Source: Arthrobacter alpinus (GTDB lineage Bacteria; Actinomycetota; Actinomycetes; Actinomycetales; Micrococcaceae). Taken from it: DNA of 64,000 nt. Positions 1,502 through 56,376 of this stretch are shown here, piece by piece; position 1 is the first letter of the stretch; each line of letters starts with the position of its first letter. The stretch spans positions 2,480,001 through 2,544,000 of the forward strand of contig NZ_CP012677.1 in the NCBI RefSeq assembly GCF_001294625.1, given 5' to 3'. Both the position numbers and the translations under genes were made by a program. The notes beneath the pieces are model-generated. The model was not told the DNA's origin. It ran no database searches and saw only the letters and a program-made list of their open reading frames with translations.

Positions 1502-1564
1502 GCTCCCACCCCCAGACGCTGCATCACCAAACACCGTGTTTTCGCCAACGCTTCTGCACTATCC
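1113..1564 (+). repeat. Left border repeat of catabolic island (modC 3' end plus downstream element)
   Basis: Bases 1113-1237 (inside modC) and 1509-1564 (end of modC spacer) match 21602-21725 and 21721-21776 respectively, in the same orientation. I count about nine mismatches over the first 125 bp, most at third codon positions of the modC frame. The right copy lacks about 276 bp (1238-1513), joined at a run of C. The match stops at the sequence ctatcc, which also supplies the stop codon of the following leftward gene. See the findings for interpretation. Confidence 0.88.
1514..1564. repeat. Dispersed intergenic repeat, copy A
   Basis: A two-part element: a GACGCT...TCACC block, an 18-bp T-rich centre, then an AACGCT...CACT block. 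The same architecture occurs at 21726-21776, at 44072-44115 (minus strand) and at 52985-53037, with a partial form near 38650-38672 (minus strand). It sits just after the modC stop, and the island junction lies at its right end. I recall similar elements scattered in Arthrobacter genomes, but I could not check this. Confidence 0.55.
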
Positions 1565-3976
1565 AAACACCGATGACTCTGCACTGACTTCCACCATGGC
1601 CGGCACGGAAACCGGTACTGGCTTCCAACGAAGGTGCGCATCCACCCCTTCGGATTCCGGTTCCTTCAGCAATGACAACCGCGGACGCACTGCGTCAGTA
1701 CGGGCACTTGGTGGCCTGCGGTTGCCAGCTTGGAAGGGCTGTACCCACGCCGCTGAGTCGCCCCTGAATTCCTGTTCGGCAGCGGCATGGAGTGTCCACT
1801 GGGGGTCGTAGAGGTGCGCCCTGCCCAGGGCAACGAGGTCAGCGCGCCCTGCCAGCAGGATCGAGTTGACGTCGTCGTAGGAGGAAATGGCACCGACCGC
1901 GATCACTGCTGCACCGGCGGGGACGCCGACTTCCTGGCGGATCCTGTCCGCGAAAGGAGTTTGGTAGCTGCGCCCGTACGCTGGCTTTTCTTCCTTGCTG
2001 ACCTGACCGGTGGAGACGTCGATTCCGGCGGCCCCGCGGCTCACGAACGCGCGGGCTATCTCAACGGCGTCGTCAATCATGTTCCCGCCCTCGCACCAAT
2101 CTGTGGCGGAGATCCGCACGGTCAGGGGCTTGTGCGCGGGCCAGGCTGCGCGGACGGCGGCGAACACCTCCAAGGGGTAGCGGAGGCGGTTCTCCAAGCT
2201 GCCGCCGAATTCGTCCGAGCGCTTGTTGGCCAGCGGCGAAAGGAACGCGGAGAGCAGGTAGCCATGGGCGGCATGCACTTCGAGGAGATCGAATCCGGCC
2301 GCGTCGGCTCGGTGTGCGGCGGCAACGAACTCTTCACGCACCTCGTCCATTTCGGCACGGCTAATTTCCCGTGGAAGCTGATTGCCCGGGCCGTAGGCGA
2401 CGGCGGACGGGCCGGCGACTTCCCAGTTTCCGTCGGCCAGCGGCTCGTCGATGCCTTCCCACATGAGCTTGGTGGAACCCTTGCGGCCGGAGTGGCCAAT
2501 CTGGGCGCCGATCTTGGCAGTTGATTGGGTGTGGACAAAGTCCACAATCTCCGACCAACTTTCGCGCTGGGCTTCGGTGTACAGGCCGCTACATCCGGGG
2601 GTGATGCGGCCCTCGGCGGAGACGCACACCATTTCCGTCATGACCAGTCCCGCCCCGCCCATGGCCTTGCTCCCTAGATGGACCAGGTGGAAGCTGCCGG
2701 GTATGCCGTCGACCGCCGAATACATGTCCATCGGTGAGACAACAATGCGGTTCTTCAGCTCCAGTGCCCCGATCCGGAATGGCTGGAACATGGCCGGGGC
2801 CACCTGGGCCAGCCCCTGGGAGGAGGCGAAGCCCGCGTCCACGTGGTGGGCAAAATCGGGGTCACGCAGTTTCAGGTTGTCATAGGTGATGCGGCGGCTG
2901 CGGGTGAGCAGATTGAAGCAGAACTGGGTCGGGTCCTGGTCCTTGTACTGGCCGATGTTCTCAAACCATTCCAAGGAAGCCTGGGCAGCGCGCTGGGTCG
3001 ATTCAACGACGGGACGGCGCTCGGCCTCGTACGCTGCCAGGGCCTGCCCTAGGTCACCGTATTCGTGGAGGCAGGCGGCCAGGGACAGGGCGTCCTCCAT
3101 GGCCAGCTTGGTGCCGGAACCGATCGAGAAGTGGGCGGTGTGGGCCGCGTCGCCCAGCAGCACCACATTGCCGCGCCGCCAGTTTTCGTTGCGGACAGTG
3201 GTGAAATTCAGCCACTTTGAATTGTTGGTCAGGACCTGATGCCCCCCAAGCTCGTCGGCGAAGATGGCTCGGATTTTTGCCACCGCCTTTTCATCGGAAA
3301 CACCGGGGGCGAAGACGTCGTTGGCAGTCTCGTCAAAGCCGGCCGCCTGCCAGACCTCCGGGGACATTTCGACAATGAAGGTGGACCCTTCATCAGAATA
3401 GGGGTAGCCGTGGATCTGCATCACGCCCCATTCGGTTTCCTTGACGAAGAACTTGAACGCCTCAAACACCTGGTCGGTGCCCAGCCACATGAATTTGTTG
3501 GATCGCGGGTCCAGGTTCGGGTGGAAAGTCTCCGCGTACTTGGCGCGGATCTGGGAGTTGATGCCGTCGGAGGCAAGCACCAGGTCGTAGTTGGCTTCCA
3601 GTACCTCCACAGGCGGTGCCATGGTGCTGAACCGGACGTCCACGCCCAGTTCGGCGCAGCGGCGCTGGAGCAGTTCCAGCAATTCCTTGCGACTCATGGC
3701 GGCAAAGCCCTGCCCACCAATGGTGTTCACCTGGTCTTTGAAGTGGATGTCGATGTCGGACCAGCGGGCGAACCGGCGGCTCATATAGTCGGCCACCACG
3801 GGGTCGGCGTTGCCGATCCCGCCGAGTGTTTCATCGGAGAAGACGACGCCGAAACCGAAGGTGTCGGAGGCGGCATTGCGTTCCCACAGGGTGATCTGGT
3901 GGGAGGGGTCCAGCTGCTTCATCAGTGCCGCGAAGTACAGGCCTCCGGGGCCCCCGCCAACAATTGCGATCTTCAT
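1559..3976 (-). CDS. Bifunctional aryl-CoA 5-monooxygenase/reductase (2-aminobenzoyl-CoA or salicyloyl-CoA type)
   Basis: This 805-residue protein is a fusion. The N-terminal half is a class A flavin monooxygenase (GGGPGG at 7-12; FAD/ribityl motif GDAAHTAHF at 275-283). From about residue 396 it is an Old Yellow Enzyme-type flavin reductase (FQPFRIGALELKNRIVVSPM). This arrangement is that of 2-aminobenzoyl-CoA monooxygenase/reductase and of proteins annotated as salicylyl-CoA 5-hydroxylase/oxidoreductase. It hydroxylates C5 of an aryl-CoA and may reduce the ring. The upstream gene ends 10 nt before its start and encodes the matching CoA ligase. The last codons and the stop lie in the island-border repeat, so the C-terminus (after about residue 770) is probably not ancestral. 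Substrate (anthranilate or salicylate) cannot be read from sequence alone. Confidence 0.85.
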   Translation of the reverse strand: MKIAIVGGGPGGLYFAALMKQLDPSHQITLWERNAASDTFGFGVVFSDETLGGIGNADPVVADYMSRRFARWSDIDIHFKDQVNTIGGQGFAAMSRKELLELLQRRCAELGVDVRFSTMAPPVEVLEANYDLVLASDGINSQIRAKYAETFHPNLDPRSNKFMWLGTDQVFEAFKFFVKETEWGVMQIHGYPYSDEGSTFIVEMSPEVWQAAGFDETANDVFAPGVSDEKAVAKIRAIFADELGGHQVLTNNSKWLNFTTVRNENWRRGNVVLLGDAAHTAHFSIGSGTKLAMEDALSLAACLHEYGDLGQALAAYEAERRPVVESTQRAAQASLEWFENIGQYKDQDPTQFCFNLLTRSRRITYDNLKLRDPDFAHHVDAGFASSQGLAQVAPAMFQPFRIGALELKNRIVVSPMDMYSAVDGIPGSFHLVHLGSKAMGGAGLVMTEMVCVSAEGRITPGCSGLYTEAQRESWSEIVDFVHTQSTAKIGAQIGHSGRKGSTKLMWEGIDEPLADGNWEVAGPSAVAYGPGNQLPREISRAEMDEVREEFVAAAHRADAAGFDLLEVHAAHGYLLSAFLSPLANKRSDEFGGSLENRLRYPLEVFAAVRAAWPAHKPLTVRISATDWCEGGNMIDDAVEIARAFVSRGAAGIDVSTGQVSKEEKPAYGRSYQTPFADRIRQEVGVPAGAAVIAVGAISSYDDVNSILLAGRADLVALGRAHLYDPQWTLHAAAEQEFRGDSAAWVQPFQAGNRRPPSARTDAVRPRLSLLKEPESEGVDAHLRWKPVPVSVPAMVEVSAESSVFG

Positions 3977-3986
3977 GGTGTGGTTC

Positions 3987-5672
3987 CTATCGGGAGGTAG
4001 TGGTGGCGGGCGTCAGGGCTGGTGTTGCGGAATCAGGCGCGGGGGTGCCGTATTCTTGGGCGATCGCCTCTCGAAGGCGGAAGTGCTGGAGTTTGCCGCT
4101 GGGGTTGTGGGGCAGCTCGGTCACGAATCGTACCTCGCGGGGATATTTGTAAGGCGCGATGCTTGCCTTGACGAAGTCCTGAAGTTCCTTGCGCTTGGCG
4201 GCATCGCCAGCAACCCCGTCACGCAGGACGACGAAGGCGCACACGACGGAGCCGCGTTCCTCGTCCGGGCGGGCGACCACGGCGTTCTCCACCACGTCGG
4301 GGTGTTCGTTGATGGCCGCTTCGACCTCTGGGGCGCCAATGTTGTAGCCGGAGGAGACGATCATGTTATCGGAGCGGGCCTGATACACGAAGTAGCCGTC
4401 GTCGTCCCTCAAGAAGGTGTCGCCGGTGACGTTCCAGCCGTCGTGGACATAGTTGGCCTGCCTCGGGTCATCGAGGTAGCGGCAGCCGGTGGGGCCGATC
4501 ACGGCCAGCCGGCCGGGCTCGTTCGGCCCCGCCTCCATGCCGTTTTCATCCAGGATGGTGGCCCGGTAGCCGGGCACGGCCACCCCGGTGGCGCCCGGGC
4601 GGATATCCTCCCCGGCTGCGGAAATGAACACGTGCAGCATTTCAGTGGCGCCGATCCCGTTGACCAGTTTCAGCCCCGTCTGCTCAAAGATGTGCTGCCA
4701 GGTTTCTTTGGGCAGGTGTTCCCCGGCGGAGACGGCGATGCGCAGCCTGCTCAGCAGCTCCCCCCTCCCCTCCTTCAGGATGGCCCGGTAGGCGGTGGGC
4801 GCCGTGAACAGGATGGAGGCGTTCGCGGCAGCGGCCGCCTCGGCCAGCTCCAGCGGCGTGGCCCGTTCGGTCAGCAGCGCCGAGGCACCGAAACGCAGCG
4901 GGAACACCACCAGCCCGCCGAGCCCAAACGTGAACGCCAGCGGGGGCGAGCCGGCAAAGACGTCCCCGGGCGTGGGCTTGAGCAGATGCCGGGCGAAGGT
5001 GTCCGCATTCGCAAGGATGTCGCGGTGGAAGTGCATCGTCACCTTTGGGGCACCAGTGGTCCCCGAGGTTGGCCCCAACAGGGCCACATCGTCGGCAGCC
5101 GTTGCGACGTTGGCAAACGTGCCACTCTTGCCGGCACAGCGGGCGATGAGGTCGCCGTCGTCGTCCGCGCCGTACGTCATGAACGGCAGTGCCTCCCCGG
5201 CAGCGACGCGCAGGTCCTCAACAAAGCGGTGGTCGGTGATGGCGACGGACGGCTTGGTGAGCTCGATCAGCGTGGTGATTTCGGCCGAACGCAGCATCGG
5301 CATGGTGGTGAGCACCACGGCGCCAGCCTTGAGCACACCCAACCATGCCGCGACGATCCACGGGTTGTTCGGGCCGCGCAACAACACCCGGTTCCCGGGC
5401 ACCACACCGAAATCCTCGGTAAGCACCTGAGCCACCTGGTTGGCGTGCGTGAGCAACTGGCCGTAGCTCCAGGTAGCGCCGTCTGGGGTGTGCAATGCAG
5501 GACGGTCGGCACCAAAGGTGGCGACGGCGTCGTCGATCAGCACGGTGGCGGCGTTCAGCCGGTCCGGGTATTGCAGTTCCGGCAACGTGAATTCAAAGAT
5601 GGGCCAGGACTCCGCCGACGGAAGATGGTCGCGAGTAAAAGTGTCAATATGGGCCGATGTCGACAAGGTCAT
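3987..5672 (-). CDS. Aryl-CoA ligase, probably 2-aminobenzoate (anthranilate) or salicylate CoA ligase
   Basis: The 561-residue protein belongs to the ANL adenylating superfamily, benzoate-CoA ligase branch. The phosphate-binding loop is GPTSGTTGAPK (200-210), followed by MHFHRD. The C-terminal subdomain contains the GYNIGAPEVE hinge region and the PSGKLQ lysine motif. It should form an aryl-adenylate and then the CoA thioester used by the adjacent monooxygenase/reductase. The start chosen is ATG 5670-5672, preceded by AAAGGA. An open frame upstream of it has no family similarity. It is part of a leftward operon with 10-52 nt gaps. Lack of a fatty-acid gate region and the neighbourhood argue against a fatty-acid ligase. 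Confidence 0.85.
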   Translation of the reverse strand: MTLSTSAHIDTFTRDHLPSAESWPIFEFTLPELQYPDRLNAATVLIDDAVATFGADRPALHTPDGATWSYGQLLTHANQVAQVLTEDFGVVPGNRVLLRGPNNPWIVAAWLGVLKAGAVVLTTMPMLRSAEITTLIELTKPSVAITDHRFVEDLRVAAGEALPFMTYGADDDGDLIARCAGKSGTFANVATAADDVALLGPTSGTTGAPKVTMHFHRDILANADTFARHLLKPTPGDVFAGSPPLAFTFGLGGLVVFPLRFGASALLTERATPLELAEAAAAANASILFTAPTAYRAILKEGRGELLSRLRIAVSAGEHLPKETWQHIFEQTGLKLVNGIGATEMLHVFISAAGEDIRPGATGVAVPGYRATILDENGMEAGPNEPGRLAVIGPTGCRYLDDPRQANYVHDGWNVTGDTFLRDDDGYFVYQARSDNMIVSSGYNIGAPEVEAAINEHPDVVENAVVARPDEERGSVVCAFVVLRDGVAGDAAKRKELQDFVKASIAPYKYPREVRFVTELPHNPSGKLQHFRLREAIAQEYGTPAPDSATPALTPATTTSR

Positions 5673-5724
5673 GGCCTGTCCTTTCGCTTGCAATGCAATG
5701 GAGGGGGAAGGCTGGTGCGCCGGC

Positions 5725-6612: not shown

Positions 6613-6616
6613 GGGC

Positions 6617-7096
6617 TCATGCCCTCCGGTAGTCGGCGAGGGTTTCGTCCGGGACGTCCTCGAGGTTGATGACCAGGTTTTCCGGTGTGCGGGCGGTGAG
6701 CCAGACCAGGTCCTCGGTGACGGACATGTTCGCCTCAACGTGCGGCATGAACGGCGGGACGAACACCCAGTCGCCGGTTTTCATGTCCAGGAAATCACAG
6801 TAGTTCTCGCCAAAGTAGATGCGGCCGTGGCCCCGCAGCACGTAACCGCCGGTCTCTGCCTCGCCGTGGTGGTGCGGCAGCGAGCGGTAGCCGGGGGTGT
6901 TGGATACCTGCCCGAACCAGATCTTCGTGGCTGGTGTGTGCTGGATGGAGACGCCGGAGACACGGACGCAGTCGCCGGACTGGGCCGTGTTGGTGTCCTC
7001 TTCGCCGGCGCGGGTCACGACGGGCACCACGGCGCCTTCGGCGTTCGCGTAAATGGAGTTGTCGCCCTCGGTGCGGTACGTAATGGTTTCGCTCAT
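6617..7096 (-). CDS. Small metal-binding cupin, candidate ring-cleavage dioxygenase
   Basis: The 159-residue single-domain cupin has both metal motifs: LPHHHGEAETGGYVLRG (residues 74-90; His triplet 75-77, Glu 79 and 81) and GDWVFVPPFMPHVEAN (108-123; His 119). The residues expected to bind a divalent metal are therefore present. Gentisate 1,2-dioxygenases are usually about 350-residue two-cupin proteins, so this is not a standard one. Its size is closer to 3-hydroxyanthranilate 3,4-dioxygenase. In an operon with an aryl-CoA hydroxylase and an FAH hydrolase it is the only visible candidate for ring opening. Start ATG 7094-7096 follows an AGGAG. It could instead be an isomerase or regulatory cupin. 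Confidence 0.75.
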   Translation of the reverse strand: MSETITYRTEGDNSIYANAEGAVVPVVTRAGEEDTNTAQSGDCVRVSGVSIQHTPATKIWFGQVSNTPGYRSLPHHHGEAETGGYVLRGHGRIYFGENYCDFLDMKTGDWVFVPPFMPHVEANMSVTEDLVWLTARTPENLVINLEDVPDETLADYRRA

Positions 7097-7127
7097 GATT
7101 TTCACTCCTATTGGGTTTGTCGTGTGC

Positions 7128-8000
7128 TTAGCGGGCGGCGTTGGCGCCCTGGTGGATCCGGACCCTGTTTTCCAACCGGCCGATCCCGTCTATTTCGGTA
7201 CTTAGTACGTCGCCATCTTTGAGGAAGCGCGGCGGGTTCATACCCATGCCCACTCCCCCGGGCGTGCCAGTCAAGACCACATCGCCCGGGCGCAGGGTGG
7301 TGAACTGGGAGATGTAGGACAACAGCTTGGCCGGGCCAAAGACCAGCGTGGCGGTGTTACCGTACTGGACAAGCTCGCCGTTGACGCGGCCACTGACCGC
7401 GAAGCCGTGGCCCGCCGGGAACTCGTCCGCTGTGACCATGACCGGGCCCAGTGGAGTGGTCTCGTCGAAGGCCTTGCCCTGGAACCACTGCAGGGTGCGG
7501 TTTTGCCAGTCCCGCATGGAGACGTCGTTGGCCACGGCGTAACCGGCAATGCCCGCTTCGGCCTCGTCCTCCCCGGCCCGGGTTAGCCGTGCCCCGACCA
7601 CGACAGCGAGCTCGGCTTCCCAGTCGACCCGTTCGCTGCCGTGCACCTTGATGGTGTCCGACGCGCCAATGAGCGTGTCGGCATATTTGGCGAACAACGT
7701 GGGGTATTCGGGCAGTTCGCGGCCCATCTCTTGGATGTGGTCCGCGTAGTTAAGGCCGCAGCAAATCACCTTGCCGGCTGTGGGCAGCAGCGGCGCCAGA
7801 TTCGCCTGGTGGGCGGGGACGACGCCGGCCCCCTCGCCTGCCGTCGCTTGGGCGAGTGCCGTTGCCACGAGCTCTTTCCAGCCACTTCGGGCCAGTAACT
7901 CCCCAACGTTGCGTGCCGGCAGGGGCAGGTAACCTTCCAAGCCCCGAGCAAGTGCCGCCGTCGTACCCTGTTCCCTGGTTCGCAAGGTGGCAAGTTTCAT
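7128..8000 (-). CDS. Fumarylacetoacetate hydrolase family protein (fumarylpyruvate/acylpyruvate hydrolase-like)
   Basis: The 290-residue protein carries the FAH-fold metal ligands: Glu128 and Glu130 in DWEAELAVVV and Asp159 in YAVANDVSMRD. The C-terminal GDVVLTGTPGGVG is also typical. The family cleaves C-C bonds of acylpyruvates, and fumarylpyruvate -> fumarate + pyruvate is the last step of gentisate-type ring degradation. It is the first gene of the leftward operon. The start ATG 7998-8000 has AAAGGA upstream, and the divergent promoter region to the RidA-like gene follows. This gene makes a ring-cleavage (rather than pure beta-oxidation) route more likely for the operon. Confidence 0.85.
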   Translation of the reverse strand: MKLATLRTREQGTTAALARGLEGYLPLPARNVGELLARSGWKELVATALAQATAGEGAGVVPAHQANLAPLLPTAGKVICCGLNYADHIQEMGRELPEYPTLFAKYADTLIGASDTIKVHGSERVDWEAELAVVVGARLTRAGEDEAEAGIAGYAVANDVSMRDWQNRTLQWFQGKAFDETTPLGPVMVTADEFPAGHGFAVSGRVNGELVQYGNTATLVFGPAKLLSYISQFTTLRPGDVVLTGTPGGVGMGMNPPRFLKDGDVLSTEIDGIGRLENRVRIHQGANAAR

Positions 8001-8023
8001 GGAGGCTGTCCTTTCAAAAAGAG

Positions 8024-8052: not shown

Positions 8053-8133
8053 AGCTCAATGTAGCATCGTTTGAGAGTTGTGTCACAGGATTTTTTGACG
8101 AATTTCTTTCCGCACCGAACAGAAGGAACCACC

Positions 8134-8526
8134 ATGCCAAACATGACGATCAACCCGTCCAGCCTGCCCAAGCCCAAGGGATACGCCCACGGGATCCTGG
8201 CGGGGAGCACCGTCTATCTGGGAGGGCAAACGGCACTGGATGCGGACATGCAGATTGTCCCGGGGGGCATTGTGGCCCAGTTCAAGCAGGCCTTTGGCAA
8301 CGTCCTAGCAACTCTGGCCGAGGCCGGCGGCCGCCCAAATGACTTGGTCAGCGTGACCATCTACCTAACGGATGTGGACGACTACCTGGCCAACGGGAGT
8401 GAAATTGGCCGACTCTGGCGTGAAATGGCCGGGTCGGAGTATCCGGCGATGGCGGGAATCGGCGTGAGCCGGTTGTGGCAAAAGGAGGCCCTGATCGAAA
8501 TTCAGGGGGTTGCCGTCATCCAATAA
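8134..8526 (+). CDS. RidA/YjgF family protein, candidate enamine/aminomuconate-type deaminase
   Basis: The 130-residue protein has the RidA fold signature (YAHGILAGSTVYLGGQTALD near residue 20, IEIQGVAV at the C-terminus). Start ATG 8134 follows AGAAGGA. In classical RidA an Arg in a PARSxV segment binds the imine acid. Here the aligned segment reads PAMAGIGV, so that Arg is replaced by Met and general 2-aminoacrylate deaminase activity is unlikely. Known family members include 2-aminomuconate deaminase, which fits a pathway whose ring-cleavage product would still carry the amino group of anthranilate. It is divergent from the aryl-CoA operon and overlaps the convergent paaX gene by 11 bp. 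Confidence 0.8.
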   Translation: MPNMTINPSSLPKPKGYAHGILAGSTVYLGGQTALDADMQIVPGGIVAQFKQAFGNVLATLAEAGGRPNDLVSVTIYLTDVDDYLANGSEIGRLWREMAGSEYPAMAGIGVSRLWQKEALIEIQGVAVIQ

Positions 8527-9406
8527 AACCGGACGGGAGGGCCCGGGCTTTGGTCATCAGCGCCCGGGCGTGGGCCGCGGCAAGGGGCGCGAGCAACCGG
8601 TGGGCTTCCAGGAAGGTGGCCCGGGCCGCCTGCCCTTTCCAGTCTTTGGGCAGATATTCTGGGGCGAGGCCGGGATCCTTGTAGGGAAACCGGCGCCAAT
8701 TGGTCAGCATTGGGATGTAGCAGCGGAACGCGTCCCGCCTCAGCTCAGCCGTTGACTCGGCAAGTACACGTTCCGGATCGGCGCCAACCTTGGCCGTCCA
8801 TTTCACCACGTCGTCTGCATACAAGGCCAGGAACTCGGCAAATTGCTCATCCAGTGAGGCCAGGTGCCACCATTGGGCAACTTTGGCGGGCAAGTCGCCG
8901 TTGGCCACGTGCTCACCTTCAAAGAAGTCGACGAACTGGTCAAGTTCCAGGGCCCGGAGCCGCTCTTTTGTCCGCTCCAGCGCGGACGCCGGCGCCACCC
9001 ACACTCCCGAGGTTATCGACCCAAAACCGAACCCGGACAAGACAGTACGCAGTTGATGGCGGCGATTGCGCAGTGCTTCGGGAACGGAAAAGATGGCCAG
9101 TACCCAGCCGCGGGCGGCGTTCGTTGGTTCAGCGGAGAAGATCCGTTCGTCGCCTTCCAGGAATAGCTCGGCCACCATCGAGGACAATTCATACTTGGCG
9201 ACGTTGCCGTCCTTCACACTCCTTAACACCCCTTTGGCCTTCAAGCGTGACACTGCAGAGCGCACCCCCGAGTGGTCATAGCCCAAATCCCCGAGCATGT
9301 CGATGAGCACTGAAACCGGCATTGCCTGCCCGGCTCCCCGGCAATAGAGGCCGTAGATGGTGATGATCAGTTGATGGTGCCGGATCGCCGACTCCTTCGC
9401 GCTCAA
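8516..9406 (-). CDS. PaaX-family transcriptional regulator
   Basis: The roughly 296-residue protein has an N-terminal winged helix (SGVRSAVSRLKAKGVLRSVK) and the C-terminal PaaX domain (PLAPxYLPKDWxG-like region). The best-known member represses phenylacetate genes and is released by phenylacetyl-CoA, so an aryl-CoA effector from this pathway is plausible. The start appears to be TTG 9404-9406, which overlaps the thioesterase stop (TTGA). No good ribosome-binding site is visible, so translation probably depends on coupling. A longer in-frame open stretch upstream is antisense noise over the thioesterase gene. Confidence 0.85.
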   Translation of the reverse strand: MSAKESAIRHHQLIITIYGLYCRGAGQAMPVSVLIDMLGDLGYDHSGVRSAVSRLKAKGVLRSVKDGNVAKYELSSMVAELFLEGDERIFSAEPTNAARGWVLAIFSVPEALRNRRHQLRTVLSGFGFGSITSGVWVAPASALERTKERLRALELDQFVDFFEGEHVANGDLPAKVAQWWHLASLDEQFAEFLALYADDVVKWTAKVGADPERVLAESTAELRRDAFRCYIPMLTNWRRFPYKDPGLAPEYLPKDWKGQAARATFLEAHRLLAPLAAAHARALMTKARALPSGFIG

Positions 9407-10759: not shown

Positions 10760-10795
10760 GTTAGCGCGCAGCTTTCAGTAATTCAGAAGACCTTA

Positions 10796-11610: not shown

Positions 11611-11612
11611 CA

Positions 11613-13230: not shown

Positions 13231-13406
13231 GTGAACGCTCCTTGGTAGTTACCGGGGATGGGGCTTGCCGACGGGCGCCGTCGGCCTGCGCGAATTGGAT
13301 GAGACCTGCGCGAAGCGGATAGTTACGGGCCGGTGGTGCAGATAGATTTCTCTTCAGGTCATTCATTATGACATGGATCACACCTTATTGTGTCGGAAGG
13401 AATCTC

Positions 13407-14204: not shown

Positions 14205-14255
14205 TTTTTCCTCCCTTCTCACAAGCACACGCATTAGGACTAAGGAACAAAAACC

Positions 14256-15491
14256 ATGAATTCACGAACCATCACCATCGTCGGTGCCGGGCAGTCCGGC
14301 CTCCAGCTCGGAATCGGCCTGCTCGACGCCGGATACAGCGTCACGCTTATTTCGAACCGAACCCCGGATCAAATCCGCGACGGTTCCATCGCCTCCAGCC
14401 AGTGCATGTTTGACCAAGCCCTGGGCCACGAACGCGCGCTCGGCATCGACCTGTGGCCCGATGCACCGCCGGTGGAAGGTATCTCCTTTACGGTCGCCCC
14501 ACCAGAGGCGCCGTGCGTCAAAGCAATGAGCTGGTCGCACAGGCTCGACGCCCCGGCACAGTCCATAGACCAGCGAGTAAAGTTCCCGGCATTGATGGAG
14601 GTGTTCGAGGCCCGCGGGGGCAAGCTGGTCATTGAGGAGGCCGGCGTCGAGGACCTTGAACGGTATGCGAGTGCCAGCGACTTGGTCATTGTGGCCGCCG
14701 GCAAGGGAGAGATCGCGGGCCTCTTTGAACGCGACGCCGAACGCAGCCACTATGCGGCACCGCAGCGTGCCCTGGCCCTGAGCTATGTGAACGGAATGAA
14801 GCCGCGCCCGGAATATTCGGCAGTGAACTTCAACCTGATCCCCGGAGTCGGTGAGTACTTTGTTTTCCCGGCGCTAACCGTGACCGGTCCCTGCGAAATC
14901 ATGGTTTTTGAAGGGCTGCCAGGCTCCGACATGGACTCGTGGAAGGGTTTGAGCCCGCAGGAGCACCTGGAAAATTCGCAACGTATCCTGCGCACCTACC
15001 TACCATGGGAGGCCGACCGCTGCACAGAAGTTGAACTCACCGACCCCAACGGCATCCTGCAGGGACGCTTCCCACCAACCGTCCGGCACCCGCTGGCCAC
15101 CCTGCCCTCCGGCAAGACGGTGCTGGGCATGGCCGACGTCGTAGTCCTCAACGATCCGATCACCGGGCAAGGTTCCAACAACGCCGCAAAGTGCGCGGCC
15201 GCCTACCTCTCAGGCATCCTGGAACACGGCGACGGCGCCTTTGACGACACTTTCAAGCAAGGCTTGTTTGAAAGCTACTGGCAGTACGCCCGGCACGTTG
15301 CGGATTGGACCAATGCGATGCTGGCTCCGCCGCCCCCGCACGCACTGCAAGTCCTGGGTGCCGCACAGGAAAACACGCAGATCGCTAAGCGTTTCGCCAA
15401 CGGATTCAACTACCCGCCGGACTTTACGCAGTGGTTCATGAGCCCGGAGGCCGCAACCGGTTATCTTGACTCTTTCCAAGCAGCGCGCTAA
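14256..15491 (+). CDS. styA1: Styrene/indole monooxygenase large subunit, StyA1 type
   Basis: The 411-residue FAD-dependent group E flavoprotein monooxygenase has GAGQSG at residues 10-15 and a C-terminal PITGQGSNNAAKCA FAD motif. It epoxidises styrene or the C2-C3 bond of indole with reduced FAD supplied by a partner reductase. There is no separate StyB. The next gene, 47 nt downstream, is StyA2B, which carries a fused reductase and probably feeds this protein. Start ATG 14256 has AAGGAA upstream. The pairing StyA1/StyA2B is the arrangement first described in Rhodococcus opacus 1CP. Indole rather than styrene is favoured by the later genes. Confidence 0.88.
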   Translation: MNSRTITIVGAGQSGLQLGIGLLDAGYSVTLISNRTPDQIRDGSIASSQCMFDQALGHERALGIDLWPDAPPVEGISFTVAPPEAPCVKAMSWSHRLDAPAQSIDQRVKFPALMEVFEARGGKLVIEEAGVEDLERYASASDLVIVAAGKGEIAGLFERDAERSHYAAPQRALALSYVNGMKPRPEYSAVNFNLIPGVGEYFVFPALTVTGPCEIMVFEGLPGSDMDSWKGLSPQEHLENSQRILRTYLPWEADRCTEVELTDPNGILQGRFPPTVRHPLATLPSGKTVLGMADVVVLNDPITGQGSNNAAKCAAAYLSGILEHGDGAFDDTFKQGLFESYWQYARHVADWTNAMLAPPPPHALQVLGAAQENTQIAKRFANGFNYPPDFTQWFMSPEAATGYLDSFQAAR

Positions 15492-15538
15492 TTCCGTCAA
15501 ACGCTTGCCTCCCCCTTCACACCCATCTGGAGCATTCA

Positions 15539-17296
15539 ATGCGTACCATCGCCATCGTCGGGGCCGGAGAATCTGGCGCCCAGCTTGCCCTCGCACTGCA
15601 ACGTTCAGGGCACAACGTCACCTTGTTCTCCGACCGTTCCGCCCAGCAGATTCGCAGCGGATCGATCACCTCCAGCCAATGCGTCTTTTCCTCTGCGCTT
15701 CGAGTCCAGCAGCCGCTGGACATCCCTGAGGCAAACACCCAGGAGCTGGGCATCGTCGGATTGCACCTGAACATCTCCGGGGGCAACATCTCCGGGAACG
15801 CAGGGGATTCCGGCCGCGAAGCCATCGACTGGCAGGGAACCCTGGACCGCCCCGCCCTCTCGGTGGACCAACGCGTCAAGTCAGCTCATTGGGTTGAAAC
15901 CTTCATCACCCGCGGAGGCGACTTCCGTATTGAAAAGCTCTCGGTGCGCCGTCTTGAGGAAGTCGCCGCACTCTTTGACCTGGTGGTAGTGGGGACCGGG
16001 AAAGGCGAACTGGGGCAGATCTTTGCCACAGACCGCGCAAAGTCCCCGTTCGACCGGCCTCAGCGGGCAGTGGCAGTCACCTATGTGGTGCCAGCCCACG
16101 GCACCAGCGAGGAGACAGACTCTCGGCACATTCGCATGAACATGGTGCCGGGGGTAGGCGAGTTCTTCACCTTCCCCGGACTCAGCACCCAAGGCCCCTG
16201 CCAGATGATGGTCTTCGAAGGGCTTCCCGGTGGACCCATGGACTGCTGGGATAGCGTCAACACCCCGGACGAGCACCTTGAAACCTCGTTGGGTATACTG
16301 CGCGAACACTTCCCCCACGAATACCCACGCTTCGCCGGCTCCGTACTGAATGATCCAGGCGCAGCGTTACGCGGACGCATCAACCCGGTGGTCCGCTCGG
16401 CCGTGGGGACCCTGCCAGGAGGCCGGATCATCATGGGGCTGGGGGACGCGATCATGCTCAACGACTCGCTCACGGGACAGGGATCTAATAACGCAACCCT
16501 GGCCGCCGACCACTACGCCCGCGCCATCGATGCCCATGGCGAGGAGGTCTTCGACGAGCAGTGGATGCTGCGGACCTTCGACGAATTCTGGCGTGGCTGG
16601 GGCCAGTTCTCCACGGTATGGACCAACTCCATGCTGCGCGAACGCAAAGACTGGCAGCTGAAAGTGCTGGCCAAGGCCCAACACCACGACGCGCTCGCAA
16701 CAGCGTTGACCAACGGTTTTGACGATCCGCGCACCTTGTTCCCCTGGTGGTTTGAACCGGAGGAAGCTCAAGCATTCATGGAGCGCGCCGTTGCGGAGGA
16801 AAGCGCAATCTTTGACCTCCGTGACTTCCGTTCCACACTGGGCCAATTCGCCACGGGCGTTACGGTGGTAACGACCCGCACCCCGCAGGGACACAAGGTT
16901 GGCATGACCGCCAACTCTTTTACCTCAGTGTCCATGGATCCGCCGCTGGTGCTCTGGTGCCCCAGCAAGTTTGCCCCGTCACTGGATGATTTCGAAGCCT
17001 CCACGCACTTTGCCATCAATGTGCTCGAATCCTCCCAGCACGTACTCTCACGTCAATTCGCCACCCCGGCGGAAGACAAGTTCGCCGGGGTGGATACTGT
17101 GGAGGGGGTCGCCGGGGTACCTTTGCTGACCGGTGCCGTTGCCACCTTCCAGTGCCGCACTGTGGCCAGGCACCAGGCAGGCGATCATGTGATCTACGTG
17201 GGCGAGGTGGAAAAATACACGCGGACAGAGGGCGACCCCCTGGTATTCCACGCTGGCGCCTACCACCGCACAGCTTTACACCCCGATTTCAGCTAA
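15539..17296 (+). CDS. styA2B: StyA2B: fused indole/styrene monooxygenase and flavin reductase
   Basis: The 585-residue fusion has StyA-like residues 1 to about 415 (GAGESG near the N-terminus; LTGQGSNNATLAAD). From about residue 424 it has a flavin-reductase domain of the HpaC/StyB type (LGQFATGVTVVTT; GMTANSFTSVSMDPPLVLW). One chain therefore can reduce FAD with NADH and use it for oxygenation. In the Rhodococcus pair, StyA2B is a poor oxygenase that mainly supplies reduced FAD to StyA1. It lies 47 nt after styA1, with TGGAG upstream of the ATG. No truncation or missing cofactor motif is seen. Confidence 0.93.
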   Translation: MRTIAIVGAGESGAQLALALQRSGHNVTLFSDRSAQQIRSGSITSSQCVFSSALRVQQPLDIPEANTQELGIVGLHLNISGGNISGNAGDSGREAIDWQGTLDRPALSVDQRVKSAHWVETFITRGGDFRIEKLSVRRLEEVAALFDLVVVGTGKGELGQIFATDRAKSPFDRPQRAVAVTYVVPAHGTSEETDSRHIRMNMVPGVGEFFTFPGLSTQGPCQMMVFEGLPGGPMDCWDSVNTPDEHLETSLGILREHFPHEYPRFAGSVLNDPGAALRGRINPVVRSAVGTLPGGRIIMGLGDAIMLNDSLTGQGSNNATLAADHYARAIDAHGEEVFDEQWMLRTFDEFWRGWGQFSTVWTNSMLRERKDWQLKVLAKAQHHDALATALTNGFDDPRTLFPWWFEPEEAQAFMERAVAEESAIFDLRDFRSTLGQFATGVTVVTTRTPQGHKVGMTANSFTSVSMDPPLVLWCPSKFAPSLDDFEASTHFAINVLESSQHVLSRQFATPAEDKFAGVDTVEGVAGVPLLTGAVATFQCRTVARHQAGDHVIYVGEVEKYTRTEGDPLVFHAGAYHRTALHPDFS

Positions 17297-17348
17297 GTGC
17301 CTAGCCAACCCAGAAAAGCCCCTGATATGCCCCTGACGAGGAGAGAAC

Positions 17349-18971
17349 ATGGAAAGCGATTACGTGGTGATTGGATCGGGAATCAATTCCCTCGTGGCAG
17401 CCGCCGAGTTGGCACGATCGGGGGCAACCGTAACCCTTTTGGAGGAAAAGGACAGGCTTGGCGGGTTTATCGATTCGGGCAAGCTGACGGTACCTGGGTT
17501 CATCCATGACACGTTTTCCTCCTGGCACCCGCTGTTCATGGCCGGTGCGGCCTACGCCGAACTCGGGCCAGAGCTGCACCGCCACGGTTTGCGCTATCTA
17601 AATACCGACGATGCGGGCACACCATGGGTGTGCGGCAGCGTGGGATCAGATACCAAGGGAAAAACCAGTGTGGTATTGGCCCTACGCGACCCTGTGGAAA
17701 CTGCCCAAGCCTTTGAACACGCGGCAGACCGGGAAGCTTATGCGGTGATGCTCCAGGAATTTGGCGCGCAAGCACCTGTCATTTTTGGGTTCATGGGCAG
17801 CGAGATGGACCTGCCGAACGCGGCAAAACTTGGATTCAAGGCCCTCCGCATGGGATTAACCAAGGTTCAGGCGCTGGTGCGTCAGGGAATGATGAGCGGG
17901 CGGAACTTGACCCGCAGCCGCTTTGTTGGCACCGAGGTGGACCAGCTGTGGGCGCCTTGGCTCTTGCATGCCGGGCTGGGCCCCGACCAGGTCAGCGGCG
18001 CGGTGATGCTCCCGGTGATGGCGGCAAGCATGCACCAATTCGGTTTGCCCATTGTTAAGGGCGGGGCAAGCGGGTTCATCGCTGCCTTTGAATCTCTGCT
18101 GCGAGAAAATGGGGTGAGAATCCACACGGGCGCCAAGGCTGATTCGATCCTCGTCAGGGACGGCCGGGCGGCGGCGGTAAAAACGGCGTCCGGAACGTTT
18201 GAGGCCAGCCACGGTATTCTGGCCTCAGTGTCGGTGCCGCAGCTCTACAATGAATTGCTGGATGCGGCCGCAGTCCCGCCCCGGAGCAGAGACCAAGCCC
18301 GTGAATACCAGCCGGGCCGCGCCGCCATGCAAATCCACGTGGCGCTCGATGCGCCGGTCCCCTGGATTGATGAACGGCTCGCCCAAACACCGTTGATTCA
18401 TCTTTCCACTGGCTCCAATTCGACGGCGATCGCCTGCGCCCAAGCTGAAGCGGGCCTGCTTCCGGCCAACCCCACCATTGTCATCGGCCAGCAATGCGTG
18501 TTGGATCCTTCGCGTGCACCGGCCGGCAAGGCAACACTGTGGCTGCAACTTCAGGAACTTCCCTTCGAACCCGTCGGGGATGCAGCTGGCGCATTGGATA
18601 TCAGTGACGGCTGGGATGAAAAACTTGTCACCGCATTCACCCAACGGGTGCTGGGGCAGATCGAGCAGTACGCCCCGGGCCTGGGGCAGTTGGTGCTAGG
18701 AATCAAGGCGATCAGCCCCCGCGAATTGAGTCAATCGAACCGCAATGCAGTGGGAGGAGACCCGTACGGCGGCTCGGCTGAGCTGTACCAAAACCTGTTG
18801 TGGCGTCCGCTGCCGCAGCTGGGCAAAGGCCGTTCGCCAATAAAAGGGCTGTGGCATATTGGCGCAGCCACGCATCCAGGCCCCGGGCTCGGCGGCGGAT
18901 CCGGACATTTAGCGGCCCAACAACTCATCCGCCGAAGCAAAAAACGGCGCCACCAAAAATCCAGCACGTGA
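17349..18971 (+). CDS. Phytoene-dehydrogenase-like FAD oxidoreductase of unknown substrate
   Basis: The 540-residue NAD(P)/FAD-dependent oxidoreductase (COG1233-like) has the N-terminal dinucleotide motif VVIGSGINSLVAAAELARSG (residues 6-25) and a C-terminal FAD motif around GLWHIGAATHPGPGLGGGSG. The start ATG 17349 has GAGGAGAG upstream. In this operon it could oxidise an indole-derived intermediate such as dihydroxyindole, indoxyl or 2-aminobenzaldehyde-level compounds. No characterised indole pathway that I know needs such an enzyme. It is the least explained intact member of the operon. Confidence 0.8.
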   Translation: MESDYVVIGSGINSLVAAAELARSGATVTLLEEKDRLGGFIDSGKLTVPGFIHDTFSSWHPLFMAGAAYAELGPELHRHGLRYLNTDDAGTPWVCGSVGSDTKGKTSVVLALRDPVETAQAFEHAADREAYAVMLQEFGAQAPVIFGFMGSEMDLPNAAKLGFKALRMGLTKVQALVRQGMMSGRNLTRSRFVGTEVDQLWAPWLLHAGLGPDQVSGAVMLPVMAASMHQFGLPIVKGGASGFIAAFESLLRENGVRIHTGAKADSILVRDGRAAAVKTASGTFEASHGILASVSVPQLYNELLDAAAVPPRSRDQAREYQPGRAAMQIHVALDAPVPWIDERLAQTPLIHLSTGSNSTAIACAQAEAGLLPANPTIVIGQQCVLDPSRAPAGKATLWLQLQELPFEPVGDAAGALDISDGWDEKLVTAFTQRVLGQIEQYAPGLGQLVLGIKAISPRELSQSNRNAVGGDPYGGSAELYQNLLWRPLPQLGKGRSPIKGLWHIGAATHPGPGLGGGSGHLAAQQLIRRSKKRRHQKSST

Positions 18972-19035
18972 GCAGGTATCTTTTGGGTAAGGAGATACTG
19001 CCTAGTTTGTCACACATCACAAATAAGGAGATTCA

Positions 19036-19809
19036 ATGAGTCCTGTCCATGCAGCCCTCGCAGCCCTGGCATCCGGAACGGTGGAGGTCGTTGACTTGAC
19101 AGCACCCCTGTCAGCGCAAACCCCCACGCTGGTGTTGCCGGAACCCTTCTCCAACCTGATTGATTTCAGCCTGGAGGAAGTCTCCGCGTACAACGAGCCG
19201 GGCCCGTATTGGAAGCACCACAACATCCATACCGGCGAACATATCGGCACGCACATTGATGCACCCATCCATTGGATCTCCGGTCGGGAGGGCAAGGACG
19301 TCGCCCAGCTGGACCCTGCCCGATTGGTGGGGCCCGCCGTCGTACTGGATTTCACCAAGGAAACAGAAGCGGACCCGGACTTTCTGGTGGATGTGGCCCA
19401 CCTGGTTGCCTGGCAGGAGGAACACGGCGCATTCCCGGCCAACGCCTGGCTGCTCTTCCGCACCGGATGGGACCAATACGGACACGACCAGCACGCCTTC
19501 CTGAATCTGGACGAGAATGGATCGCACACCCCGGGCTTTACCGCAGAATGTGCACAGTGGATGGCGCAGGAACTGGAAATCTCCGGTATCGGCGTGGAAA
19601 CCGTGGGGATCGACGCCGGCAATGCCGCAGCACTGAACCCACCGTTCCCGGTTCACTATTTCCTGCTCGGCGCCGACAAATACGGCATCACCTCGCTGAA
19701 GAACCTGGCCAAGCTGCCCACCCACGGCGCCATGATCGTGGTGGCCCCCTTGCCGATCGTCGGCGGCACGGGTGCCCCTGCCCGCGTCATGGCACTGATC
19801 CAAAAGTAG
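19036..19809 (+). CDS. Cyclase-family metal hydrolase, isatin-hydrolase-like
   Basis: The 257-residue protein of the KynB/isatin hydrolase superfamily has the metal-binding motif HIGTHIDAPIH at residues 69-79 (form HxGTHxDxPxH). Members hydrolyse cyclic or formyl amides: N-formylkynurenine to kynurenine, isatin to isatinate. Next to an indole oxygenase, opening of isatin to isatinate is the natural proposal. A kynurenine formamidase role is less likely because the nearby kynureninase is dead. Start ATG 19036 follows AAGGAGAT. Family is firm; the substrate is inferred. Confidence 0.85.
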   Translation: MSPVHAALAALASGTVEVVDLTAPLSAQTPTLVLPEPFSNLIDFSLEEVSAYNEPGPYWKHHNIHTGEHIGTHIDAPIHWISGREGKDVAQLDPARLVGPAVVLDFTKETEADPDFLVDVAHLVAWQEEHGAFPANAWLLFRTGWDQYGHDQHAFLNLDENGSHTPGFTAECAQWMAQELEISGIGVETVGIDAGNAAALNPPFPVHYFLLGADKYGITSLKNLAKLPTHGAMIVVAPLPIVGGTGAPARVMALIQK

Positions 19810-19905
19810 CGGCCGACCCTCCATGGCGGGCAGGCAGAAATGCCCGGCTCATCCCTGGAGAACCTCAACCCAGTCCTGGCCAACCCAGCATCGAAGGAAG
19901 TTTTC

Positions 19906-21564
19906 ATGAACGTCGCTCAACTTGTCGGCAAGACCCTAGCCCAGCTTGGCGTAGGACATTGCTTTGGGGTGGTCGGCTCGGGGAACTTCACCATCACGAA
20001 CACCTTGATGGAGCATGGGGTCCCGTTTACGGCGGCCCGCCATGAGGGCGGGGCTGCGACAATGGCTGACGCCTTTGCTCGAACCAGCGGGCAGGTGGCG
20101 CTACTTTCGGTGCACCAGGGGTGTGGGCTCACCAACGCGGCTACAGGAATCGGGGAGGCCGCCAAGTCTCGTACCCCGATGATCGTGCTGGCCGCTGAGG
20201 CTGCGCCAAGCGCCGTGTATTCGAACTTCGCTATGGACCAAGAAGGTTTCGCCGCCTCTGTCTACGCTGTCTCCGAGCGTGTGCACAGCGCTCAAACGGC
20301 GGTCGCAGACACCATCCGGGCTTATCGCCGGGCAGTGAATGACCGCCGCACGGTGGTGCTGAACTTGCCGCTGAACGTCCAGGCCCAGGAAGTGCCAGAC
20401 GGCGCCGGTCAGCCCCCGGCGGAAATCTCCCTAGCCGAAACAATCCGCCCCTCGCGGGCCGCCGTTGCTGCACTGACCGAGTTGATCCAAAATGCCCAAC
20501 GCCCGATCTTTGTGGCTGGGCGCGGTGGTCGCGGAGCCAAGACGGAGATCCTTGAACTGGCCAGGCAGACAGGGGCCCTTGTCGCAACTTCCGCCGTCGC
20601 CAAGGGCCTTTTTAACGAAGATCACTTCAACCTTGGTATTTCCGGCGGTTTCTCATCGCCGCTGGCCGCCGAGCTGATCACCGGCGCCGACTTGATCGTG
20701 GGTTTCGGCTGTGCCCTGAACATGTGGACAATGCGCCACGGTCATTTGATAAGTGCGGACACCAAGGTGGTCCAGATCGACCTCGAGGATCAGGCGCTGG
20801 GCGCCAACAGGCCCATCAATCTGGGTGTGCTGGGTGATTCGGGCGAATGCGCCACCGATGTCCTCGCTGAAATTAGACGCCAGGGGTACCCGCCGCGTGA
20901 GGGTTACCGTAGCGCCGAGGTTGCCGCCCGCATCAGGGGTTCGGTTCAATGGCAGCAAGTTCCGTTCGAGGATCTTTGCGATCCACAGCGGATCGATCCT
21001 CGCACGTTGACCAAACGGCTGGATGAGCTGCTGCCAACCGAGCGTATTGTCAGCGTGGATTCTGGGAACTTTATGGGCTACCCGAGCCAATACCTTTCTG
21101 TACCGGACGAGTTCGGCTTCTGTTTCACCCAGGCCTTTCAATCCATTGGGTTGGGGTTGTACACGGCTATTGGTGCGGCCCTCGCCCAGCCGCAGCGCCT
21201 GCCTGTCCTGGGGACAGGGGACGGCGGATTCCACATGGCCATAGCGGAACTGGACACGGCCGTGCGCCTGAACATGCCCTTGGTGTGCATCGTCTACAAC
21301 GACGCCGCCTATGGTGCTGAAGTGCACCACTTCGCGATCGATAATCCAGATGCGGACATGAGCTCAGTACAATTCCCGGACACCGATTTCGCCGCCATTG
21401 GACGTGGTTTCGGCGCCGATGGCATCACAGTCCGCAGCCTCGCGGACCTCGATGCTGTCAGTGACTGGTTGGATTCAAATCCCAGCCGTCCCCTGGTCAT
21501 CGATGCAAAGATCGCCTCGGATTCCGGTGCGTGGTGGCTCGCCGAGGCATTCAAGGGGCACTAA
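19906..21564 (+). CDS. Thiamin-diphosphate enzyme, benzoylformate decarboxylase-like; candidate isatinate decarboxylase
   Basis: The 552-residue ThDP enzyme has three domains. The catalytic Glu is in HEGGAATMADAF (Glu47). The ThDP/Mg motif starts at GDGG (438-441) and closes with Asn466 (VYNDAAYG). Starting at ATG 19906, preceded by GAAGGAAG, is better than an upstream ATG at 19840, which has no site. The superfamily decarboxylates 2-oxo acids. Isatinate is 2-aminobenzoylformate, a direct amino analogue of the substrate of benzoylformate decarboxylase, so decarboxylation to 2-aminobenzaldehyde (then anthranilate) fits the place after the isatin-hydrolase-like gene. Acetolactate synthase-like chemistry is an alternative. 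Confidence 0.8.
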   Translation: MNVAQLVGKTLAQLGVGHCFGVVGSGNFTITNTLMEHGVPFTAARHEGGAATMADAFARTSGQVALLSVHQGCGLTNAATGIGEAAKSRTPMIVLAAEAAPSAVYSNFAMDQEGFAASVYAVSERVHSAQTAVADTIRAYRRAVNDRRTVVLNLPLNVQAQEVPDGAGQPPAEISLAETIRPSRAAVAALTELIQNAQRPIFVAGRGGRGAKTEILELARQTGALVATSAVAKGLFNEDHFNLGISGGFSSPLAAELITGADLIVGFGCALNMWTMRHGHLISADTKVVQIDLEDQALGANRPINLGVLGDSGECATDVLAEIRRQGYPPREGYRSAEVAARIRGSVQWQQVPFEDLCDPQRIDPRTLTKRLDELLPTERIVSVDSGNFMGYPSQYLSVPDEFGFCFTQAFQSIGLGLYTAIGAALAQPQRLPVLGTGDGGFHMAIAELDTAVRLNMPLVCIVYNDAAYGAEVHHFAIDNPDADMSSVQFPDTDFAAIGRGFGADGITVRSLADLDAVSDWLDSNPSRPLVIDAKIASDSGAWWLAEAFKGH

Positions 21565-22470: not shown

Positions 22471-22481
22471 CCTCATCATAG

Positions 22482-22555
<74 letters not shown>

Positions 22556-56291: not shown

Positions 56292-56302
56292 CCTCAACAT
56301 GG

Positions 56303-56376
<74 letters not shown>

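Follow-up and report, generated by a model that had tools for sequence, protein, structure and literature searches.

A probable two-operon locus for indole catabolism through anthraniloyl-CoA in Arthrobacter alpinus, and a possible isatin/isatinate branch in Actinobacteria

We analyzed a 64,000-nt window of DNA (G000:C1:2480001-2544000) from the single-contig, 4.05-Mb genome of Arthrobacter alpinus (contig NZ_CP012677.1), in which an island of catabolic genes probably constitutes a two-operon locus that takes indole to anthraniloyl-coenzyme A (anthraniloyl-CoA) and beyond, via dioxindole, isatin, isatinate, possibly 2-aminobenzaldehyde, and anthranilate. The front end occupies a single strand at 13404-21564, with an AraC gene divergent from it, and the back end extends from 9861 to 1559, RidA alone being on the opposite strand. 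An earlier note on this DNA had named the genes of both halves and joined them into one candidate complete pathway; open reading frames (ORFs) and domain scans confirmed that each of these genes is present, open and in the order given there. The proposal draws on gene content, homology, residue conservation, co-occurrence, repeated clustering and a conserved operator, all observed directly; the substrates and reactions in this strain are predicted from them, those of the flavin adenine dinucleotide (FAD) oxidoreductase and the thiamine diphosphate (ThDP) enzyme being the least certain. Judged by StyA1, the closest named relatives of the strain's locus are in Arthrobacter cryoconiti (96%) and Arthrobacter sp. 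GMC3 (92%).

In the proposed route, StyA1 (14256-15491, + strand), supplied with reduced FAD by StyA2B (15539-17296, +), would epoxidize indole, and a short-chain dehydrogenase/reductase (SDR; ORF 13368-14204, +, likely start 13404) would oxidize the indole diol to 3-hydroxyindolin-2-one (dioxindole). This SDR, recognized by domain scan and mostly found directly before StyA1 in relatives, is a presumed indole-2,3-dihydrodiol dehydrogenase. A CrtO-like FAD oxidoreductase (17349-18971, +; far under the cut-off of the CrtO model) may then oxidize dioxindole to isatin, replacing the ring-cleaving enzyme IifA, a cyclase-family enzyme (19036-19809, +) would convert isatin to isatinate, and the ThDP enzyme (19840-21564, +), assigned by domain scan and adjoining the hydrolase gene in many relatives, could decarboxylate isatinate; the simplest product would be 2-aminobenzaldehyde, to be turned into anthranilate by a dehydrogenase whose gene lies elsewhere. 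The PaaX-bearing operon would activate anthranilate to its CoA ester by means of an AMP ligase (-, likely 3987-5672 rather than the full 665-aa ORF), a monooxygenase/reductase (1559-3976, -) would hydroxylate and dearomatize anthraniloyl-CoA, and RidA (8134-8526, +), presumably through enamine/imine hydrolysis, would release ammonia; the ring would also be opened. To call the island complete, as had been done, is too strong, since no aldehyde dehydrogenase was found among the scanned ORFs and ring opening after the monooxygenase/reductase is a prediction.

That the two halves form one pathway is indicated most strongly by their distribution. Among 395 genomes, an even draw from the larger family whose members are mutually related, StyA1 occurred in 25, the ThDP enzyme in 111 and the monooxygenase/reductase in 76. 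For StyA1 and the ThDP enzyme the ortholog cut-off was at least 60% identity; the ThDP count includes G148, a partial match at 66%, and second StyA1 rows at 47% and below were left out of the tally. All 25 StyA1 genomes carried both the ThDP enzyme (Fisher p 2e-15) and the monooxygenase/reductase (p 3e-20), values that overstate independence since the sampled genomes are related. The halves, whose joint occurrence the earlier note had proposed to check, are thus associated far beyond chance. StyA1 and the ThDP gene shared a contig in 23 of the 25, always within 8.5 kb; StyA1 and the monooxygenase/reductase did so in 18 and lay within 25 kb in 12, which include at least one genome from each of the five StyA1-bearing genera. 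The arrangement varied: the back end lies upstream of AraC in the window and in GMC3 (L073), faces the ThDP gene in L024, L026, L028 and L034 and in Paeniglutamicibacter and Glutamicibacter (L084, L085, L087), and follows the ThDP gene in other Arthrobacter (L069, L070). We also fetched 80 StyA1 loci, the best of 455 relatives, with flanks of up to 10 kb, so that more distant partners were missed; genes were called by a simple codon-usage script, which made false calls in some loci (e.g., over StyA1 in L114, L128, L136 and L140). Back-end genes, counted as either the ligase or the monooxygenase/reductase or a minimum of two others, were seen at the thresholds used in 18 of the 80, among them Leucobacter (L123, L124, L129, L148), Nocardia arthritidis (L119) and, with the ligase only, Rhodococcus (L116, L118, L120). 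A plasmid of the alphaproteobacterium Alloyangia pacifica (L167) holds AraC, SDR, oxygenase, reductase, two thioesterases, monooxygenase/reductase and RidA in 8.4 kb, with FAH and cupin genes close to this run. Co-occurrence in 25 of 25 genomes, linkage in several arrangements and a ligase 78% identical to a known anthranilate ligase together bear out the claim of a single pathway.

Some observations weigh against it. By contig coordinates, with circularity ignored, a distance above 2 Mb separates the halves in six genomes of one genus; in seven genomes StyA1 and the monooxygenase/reductase are on separate contigs; the StyA1 relative of G200, one of the 25, stands without the remaining operon (L064); and no ligase was found in the Alloyangia stretch. 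Two independent islands, neighbors by chance, with the back end a former kynurenine branch unrelated to indole, would account for halves lying beyond 25 kb in 13 of the 25 StyA1 genomes, for their separate regulators, and for the decayed kynureninase and Lrp genes between them, which match the kynU-Lrp-back-end locus of Arthrobacter sp. ERGS1:01. Nevertheless, we consider such chance neighborhood very improbable, given linkage in varied orders in five genera of the family as well as in Leucobacter, Nocardia and Alloyangia, and a back-end enzyme in every genome with a StyA1 ortholog.

The decayed genes, absent from the earlier note, occupy 10237-11978. An Lrp/AsnC regulator (10237-10711, -), with an annotated relative in the ERGS1:01 plasmid (L166), is broken into two frames; a kynureninase (10796-11625, +) persists as residues 1-213 and 221-350 of 432 in separate frames, its last 82 residues gone; and an amino-acid permease remnant (11526-11978, +) covers residues 302-449 of 470. 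The annotated order in L166 is kynU, Lrp, thioesterase, PaaX, RidA, cupin, ligase and monooxygenase/reductase, and the kynureninase there is entire and above its model cut-off. The FAH and TesB-like thioesterase genes of L166 are unannotated and, like PaaX, match in pieces only, so this back end is possibly decaying itself. Since kynureninase yields anthranilate, its presence argues for a back end fed by anthranilate, and the remnant is an older anthranilate source, decayed between the halves. We rejected loss of the whole kynurenine route, as another kynureninase and tryptophan-dioxygenase matches occur elsewhere in the genome.

Plasmid pAL1 of Arthrobacter sp. Rue61a carries genes for PaaX, RidA, FAH, cupin, thioesterase, ligase and monooxygenase/reductase that are collinear with those of the back end. 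Identity is 69-83% for the six genes from RidA to monooxygenase/reductase, namely RidA (80%), the FAH-family hydrolase (7128-8000, -; 72%), the cupin protein (6617-7096, -; 83%), a TesB-like acyl-CoA thioesterase (5725 to about 6612, -, start uncertain; 69%), the ligase (78% over 540 residues) and the monooxygenase/reductase (79%), and only ~43% for the PaaX-family regulator (8516 to about 9400, -, start uncertain; domain scan). A 4HBT-like thioesterase (9403-9861, -), under its model cut-off, is 81% identical to its relative in ERGS1:01. We considered a gentisate-type dioxygenase role for the cupin and discarded it, as no significant PDB relative was found (best E 0.04). By orthology and shared gene order the ligase belongs with the pAL1 anthranilate-CoA ligase, and its neighbor joins an FAD monooxygenase (FAD_binding_3) to an old-yellow-enzyme domain, in the manner of 2-aminobenzoyl-CoA monooxygenase/reductase. 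The 2-aminobenzoate genes of Azoarcus evansii are presumably a comparable system. The pAL1 ligase showed anthranilate-CoA ligase activity in E. coli extracts, and anthraniloyl-CoA was present in anthranilate-grown Rue61a cells, from which degradation via CoA thioesters was concluded (PMC3534580). A point on the other side is the NCBIfam label of the monooxygenase/reductase, salicylyl-CoA 5-hydroxylase/oxidoreductase, above cut-off, which leaves its substrate unfixed by sequence alone. However, the pAL1 protein bears the same name, so that the label is no argument for salicylate, and the anthranilate-active pAL1 ligase makes salicylate unlikely as the back-end substrate. A ligase for salicylate only, which the earlier note had held out as damaging to its pathway, is likewise unlikely at 78% identity to the assayed enzyme (PMC3534580).

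At the front end, the StyA-like protein lies beside a StyA-flavin-reductase fusion (StyA plus flavin-reductase domains), the arrangement that defines an E2-type pair. The best PDB match of StyA1 is 7z4x (E 7e-159), which we take to be the indole monooxygenase VpIndA1. In a local alignment with 7z4x, read by eye, S47, Q49, M51, V73 and I76 of the window protein agree with the indole fingerprint S46-Q48-M50-V/I73-I76-A96 (PMC13101512) at five of its six positions, the placing of A96 being uncertain. Group E monooxygenases take several substrates (PMC13101512, PMC6017014), and the hydrolase of the island is changed at two isatin-specific motifs; a front end that attacks some other indolic or aryl compound (skatole, a substituted indole, or a styrene-like molecule), with the hydrolase opening another cyclic amide, would fit both. 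Such a substrate is hardly probable considering the fingerprint residues, which a skatole enzyme 27.7-35.1% identical to indole monooxygenases lacks (PMC13101512), and considering that the IndA1/IndA2B pair of Rhodococcus opacus 1CP consists of indole monooxygenases and that styrene gave no induction (PMC13101518). Another type of StyA1/FAD-oxidase cluster occurs in Amycolatopsis, Haloechinothrix, Streptomyces, Thermocrispum, Kibdelosporangium and Nocardioides (L111, L113, L115, L127, L128, L131, L134); in these clusters an FAD monooxygenase is accompanied by a molybdenum hydroxylase and an Ldh_2-type dehydrogenase, L128 has a ChrR-type cupin as well, and at the thresholds used the flanks showed no gene of the anthraniloyl-CoA set.

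In the iif pathway, IifA converts 3-hydroxyindolin-2-one to anthranilate (PMC6221969, PMC12538310). From the gene order of a Burkholderia relative we infer that IifA is a dienelactone-hydrolase-family protein, and a Pfam scan of the window's first 24 kb (20 ORFs) found no domain of this family; no such gene was present in the flank of L083, a close relative. Among the 80 StyA1 loci, the FAD oxidase occurred in 44 and an IifA-like gene in 13, with both in two (L119, L120) and neither in 25. This pattern would be compatible with an enzyme that stands in for an absent IifA. The FAD oxidase and the hydrolase stood together in 33 loci, whereas 11 had the oxidase without the hydrolase and two the reverse.

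The top PDB matches of the cyclase-family protein are isatin hydrolases (E 4e-72), and it keeps the metal motif HxG[T/A]HxDxPxH (His69, His73, Asp75, His79) and the catalytic Asp193 and His207. These metal-binding and catalytic residues have been listed for isatin hydrolase, and WXW/FXW and GLQC/GLAS proposed as its signature motifs (PMC6117287). Against an isatin substrate, the window protein reads WxH in the first motif and GITS in the second, and we therefore call it isatin-hydrolase-like; the earlier assignment stands as regards structural kinship and the metal and catalytic residues, and falls short in the two isatin-specific motifs. In an alignment of 75 rows (the window and loci, some genomes twice), WxW was present in 32, including Paenarthrobacter/Arthrobacter, Rhodococcus, Hoyosella and Streptomyces, and QC or AS in the second motif in none; the Paenarthrobacter and Arthrobacter hydrolases of complete indole operons keep WxW and have TS in the second. 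A further difficulty comes from the auxin-degrading iad pathway, in which the amidase IadI acts after C8H7NO2 (the formula of dioxindole), which accumulates without IadI, while C8H7NO3 and C7H7NO come after (PMC12633357). These facts, and the deviating motifs, would suit the same overall pathway in another order, with the hydrolase opening dioxindole to 2-aminomandelate, the FAD enzyme forming isatinate and decarboxylation following as in the mandelate pathway, so that free isatin would be no intermediate. We regard this order as unlikely, since the closest solved hydrolases open isatin (PMC6117287) and the Paenarthrobacter/Arthrobacter hydrolases of the same operon retain WxW.

For the preferred sequence, in which isatinate arises from isatin, the chief argument that isatinate is the substrate of the ThDP enzyme is a replacement. 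An indolepyruvate-oxidoreductase-type pair (TPP-domain and POR-domain proteins) occurs in five of the 80 StyA1 loci, from Rhodococcus (L116, L118, L120), Hoyosella (L125) and Streptomyces (L114), the domains having been scanned in L120 and the other four assigned by similarity. In four of the five the hydrolase adjoins this pair, and none was seen in L118, a contig of 18 kb. The ThDP enzyme (27 loci) and the oxidoreductase-like pair never occur together, and 31 of the 35 hydrolase-bearing StyA1 loci carry one of the two. Both types of thiamine enzyme are expected to decarboxylate 2-keto acids, and isatinate is a 2-keto acid. Benzoylformate decarboxylase acts through Ser26, Glu47, His70 and a second histidine, His281. 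Aligned with the 1bfd sequence, the window enzyme keeps the first three, and in register it has Thr for His281, with a His three residues beyond that position in nine of the ten closest rows. Since His281 is lost we leave the protein outside the benzoylformate decarboxylase class, and its nearest solved relatives in the PDB are other ThDP enzymes. The iad study placed C8H7NO3 and C7H7NO, formulas that match isatinate and 2-aminobenzaldehyde, after the amidase product and before anthranilate (PMC12633357). According to a figure legend in which the loci concerned are unstated, iorA and iorB are among the genes of the auxin-degradation loci compared in PMC9613470.

Several points tell against the isatinate step. 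The change at His281 is one; four Leucobacter loci have the hydrolase and neither thiamine enzyme in 21 kb, except for a TPP enzyme of 28% identity at some distance in L124; nine iad genes, with no named thiamine enzyme among them, restored anthranilate (PMC12633357); and no aldehyde dehydrogenase was recognized near the hydrolase/ThDP pair among the window ORFs scanned. An aldehyde dehydrogenase adjoining the ThDP gene was also absent from three neighbor genes in L040, and such a gene does lie near the pair on plasmid pLRE138 of Rhodococcus erythropolis R138 (L164).

The hydrolase/ThDP pair is not confined to indole loci, which likewise weighs against a role in indole breakdown alone: the ThDP enzyme (at least 60% identity) is far commoner than StyA1 (111 vs 25 of the 395 genomes), and the pair stood without StyA1 in view in 23 fetched stretches of the family (L068, which overlaps L067, was not counted), although two of these, from G200 (L031) and G216 (L038), come from genomes with StyA1 elsewhere. 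This wider spread implies other uses or other suppliers, and suggests a hub into which several suppliers feed. Four of the 23 stretches (L029, L037, L056, L058), and L164 as well, have genes for an acyl-CoA ligase and a thiolase-like protein near the pair; these resemble iadF and iadG of the auxin iad locus, which are thought to take off the acetyl side chain (PMC12633357). An LLM-type flavin monooxygenase, which could oxidize an aldehyde or oxindole, stands with a second AraC gene beside the pair in L038, L041 and L081 and between the hydrolase and ThDP genes in L028, L034, L085 and L087; it is RutA/SfnG-like in L034, a flavin-reductase-like gene occurs in L034, L028 and L038, and in L085, L087 and L041 it has operator-like sites close by. 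Outside the family the pair is found on large plasmids of Deinococcus psychrotolerans (L163) and of R. erythropolis R138 (L164), and in L163 a single run contains the monooxygenase/reductase, ligase, hydrolase, ThDP enzyme and RidA along with a MarR gene and three further catabolic genes. Between the pair and the back end in L035 (11145-12326) and L071 (4587-5789) there is a class V aminotransferase-like gene; the two proteins are ~50% identical, and we set aside a kynureninase identity, since the L035 protein is closest to cysteine desulfurase models (below cut-offs) and is below the cut-off of the kynureninase model.

A pair that adjoins the back end in loci without StyA1 in the stretch might instead serve the anthraniloyl-CoA pathway, opening the non-aromatic ring that the monooxygenase/reductase produces, in the way of the ThDP-dependent cyclohexanedione hydrolase; the Deinococcus run with ligase, hydratase, dehydrogenase and RidA agrees with this, and cyclohexane-1,2-dione hydrolase is among the PDB matches of the ThDP enzyme, although at 88 bits vs 148 for the best match. 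The distribution of the genes makes such a role quite unlikely. The ThDP ortholog is absent in 11 of the 76 monooxygenase/reductase genomes and the monooxygenase/reductase in 46 of the 111 ThDP genomes, pAL1 has the back end and no pair in the 30 kb examined, and 16 of the 80 StyA1 loci have the pair after StyA1 while their 10-kb flanks, at the thresholds used, show no back-end gene (for L086, one of these 16, the back end is located a little past the flank, in L071).

Regulation of the proposed indole pathway appears to differ between its halves. The AraC-family regulator (12211-13230, -) is weakly AndR-like (E 1.6e-37, under the cut-off of the AndR model) and would turn on the front end via a tandem operator at 13287-13321 (+), upstream of SDR, which consists of two TGCGCNNNNCGGATA-like half-sites, TGCGC-N4-CGGATA, in steps of 20 bp, and at 20 of 22 positions is the top site of the window. 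A score of at least 16 was reached in 52 of 63 SDR-upstream regions of 220 bp (the window included) vs 11 of 2368 control windows, the pattern having been derived from the same upstream regions in which it was counted. The site was present in 30 of the 33 regions from L111 onward, which lie outside Micrococcaceae, and eight of the 11 regions that miss it have a site scoring 18 or 19 farther upstream (L088, L091, L104-L109). In Alloyangia L167, outside the set from which the pattern came, the score was again 20/22. No such operator was found before the window back end, which counts against control of the whole pathway by the AraC protein, a possibility we dropped, and the back-end operon carries its own PaaX gene. 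The halves are therefore not visibly one regulon and are probably induced in series rather than by one regulator.

Whether Actinobacteria own a distinct isatin/isatinate branch of aerobic indole catabolism is a question on which we find the evidence evenly balanced. In such a branch the CrtO-like FAD oxidase and the isatin-hydrolase-like enzyme would replace IifA, and isatinate would be decarboxylated by either of two unrelated thiamine enzymes, the stand-alone one or the indolepyruvate-oxidoreductase-like complex, which could give anthraniloyl-CoA directly. The hydrolase/ThDP pair would be a hub, fed from indole here and elsewhere perhaps from side-chain indoles such as auxin, that was joined to the anthraniloyl-CoA pathway several times, and the AraC-type operator would be common to Actinobacteria and Proteobacteria.

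Other features of the window lie beside the island. An ABC transporter ATPase with a TOBE domain (434-1501) directly adjoins the back end and is presumably part of a putative molybdate-type importer, judging by its architecture. Two tRNA-Met (CAT) genes (22481-22555 and 56300-56376), identical over 74 compared bases, sit in a 137-nt direct repeat whose copies are 89% identical and 33.8 kb apart; the repeats flank genes of acyl-CoA catabolism, among them AtuA and a biotin-dependent carboxylase pair, that resemble those for acyclic terpene utilization.

Taken singly, the oxygenase, hydrolase family and back end are known, and an indole to anthranilate to 2-aminobenzoyl-CoA route has been reported for Cupriavidus sp. 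SHE (Qu 2017, via PMC6221969). The earlier note was aware of no single described locus that unites the two halves; the overall route is on record (PMC6221969), and the linked isatin-type branch with FAD and thiamine enzymes, like the two thiamine solutions and the recurrent joining to anthraniloyl-CoA genes, was not found in the open-license PubMed Central papers searched. A 2018 review asked whether isatin is a true intermediate, which cluster degrades anthranilate and how indole genes are regulated (PMC6221969); the locus and its relatives offer concrete genes for all three, in the isatin-type branch, the anthraniloyl-CoA back end and the conserved operator. The two thiamine enzymes proposed for the isatinate step would bear on the iad pathway as well, since the available parts of its two accounts assign no gene to this step (PMC9613470, PMC12633357). 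Isatin-opening enzymes are also useful in indigo production, where isatin is tied to the by-product indirubin (PMC6221969).

Compared with known systems, the proposed route is like the iad auxin pathway of Variovorax and Bradyrhizobium, which reportedly uses a formamidase-like amidase and arrives at anthranilate by way of dioxindole, isatin and isatinic acid (PMC9613470, PMC12633357). However, that pathway, whose early steps are revised in a 2025 preprint (PMC12633357), begins at indole-3-acetate with the Rieske-type IadCDE, and a StyA-type oxygenase goes unmentioned in the available parts of both sources (PMC9613470, PMC12633357); a Pfam scan of the 20 ORFs in the window's first 24 kb found no Rieske domain. 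The IndA1/IndA2B proteins of R. opacus 1CP are, as in the window, a split and fused group E oxygenase pair (PMC13101518), whereas R. opacus ATCC 51881 (L120), compared in place of 1CP, differs in having indolepyruvate-oxidoreductase-like genes and an IifA-like gene. The cluster of pAL1 in Rue61a was described for anthranilate derived from quinaldine (PMC3534580), while the window back end adjoins predicted indole genes. The iif/ind clusters of Acinetobacter O153, Cupriavidus SHE and Burkholderia IDO3 share with the window an SDR, a StyA-type oxygenase, a flavin reductase and anthranilate as product (PMC6221969, PMC12538310), and the iif relative of Burkholderia pyrrocinia comprises AraC, a dienelactone-hydrolase-family gene, SDR, oxygenase and reductase. 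In the island of A. alpinus, by contrast, genes for an FAD oxidase, an isatin-hydrolase-like protein and a thiamine enzyme stand in place of the dienelactone-hydrolase-family gene, and the back end is attached.

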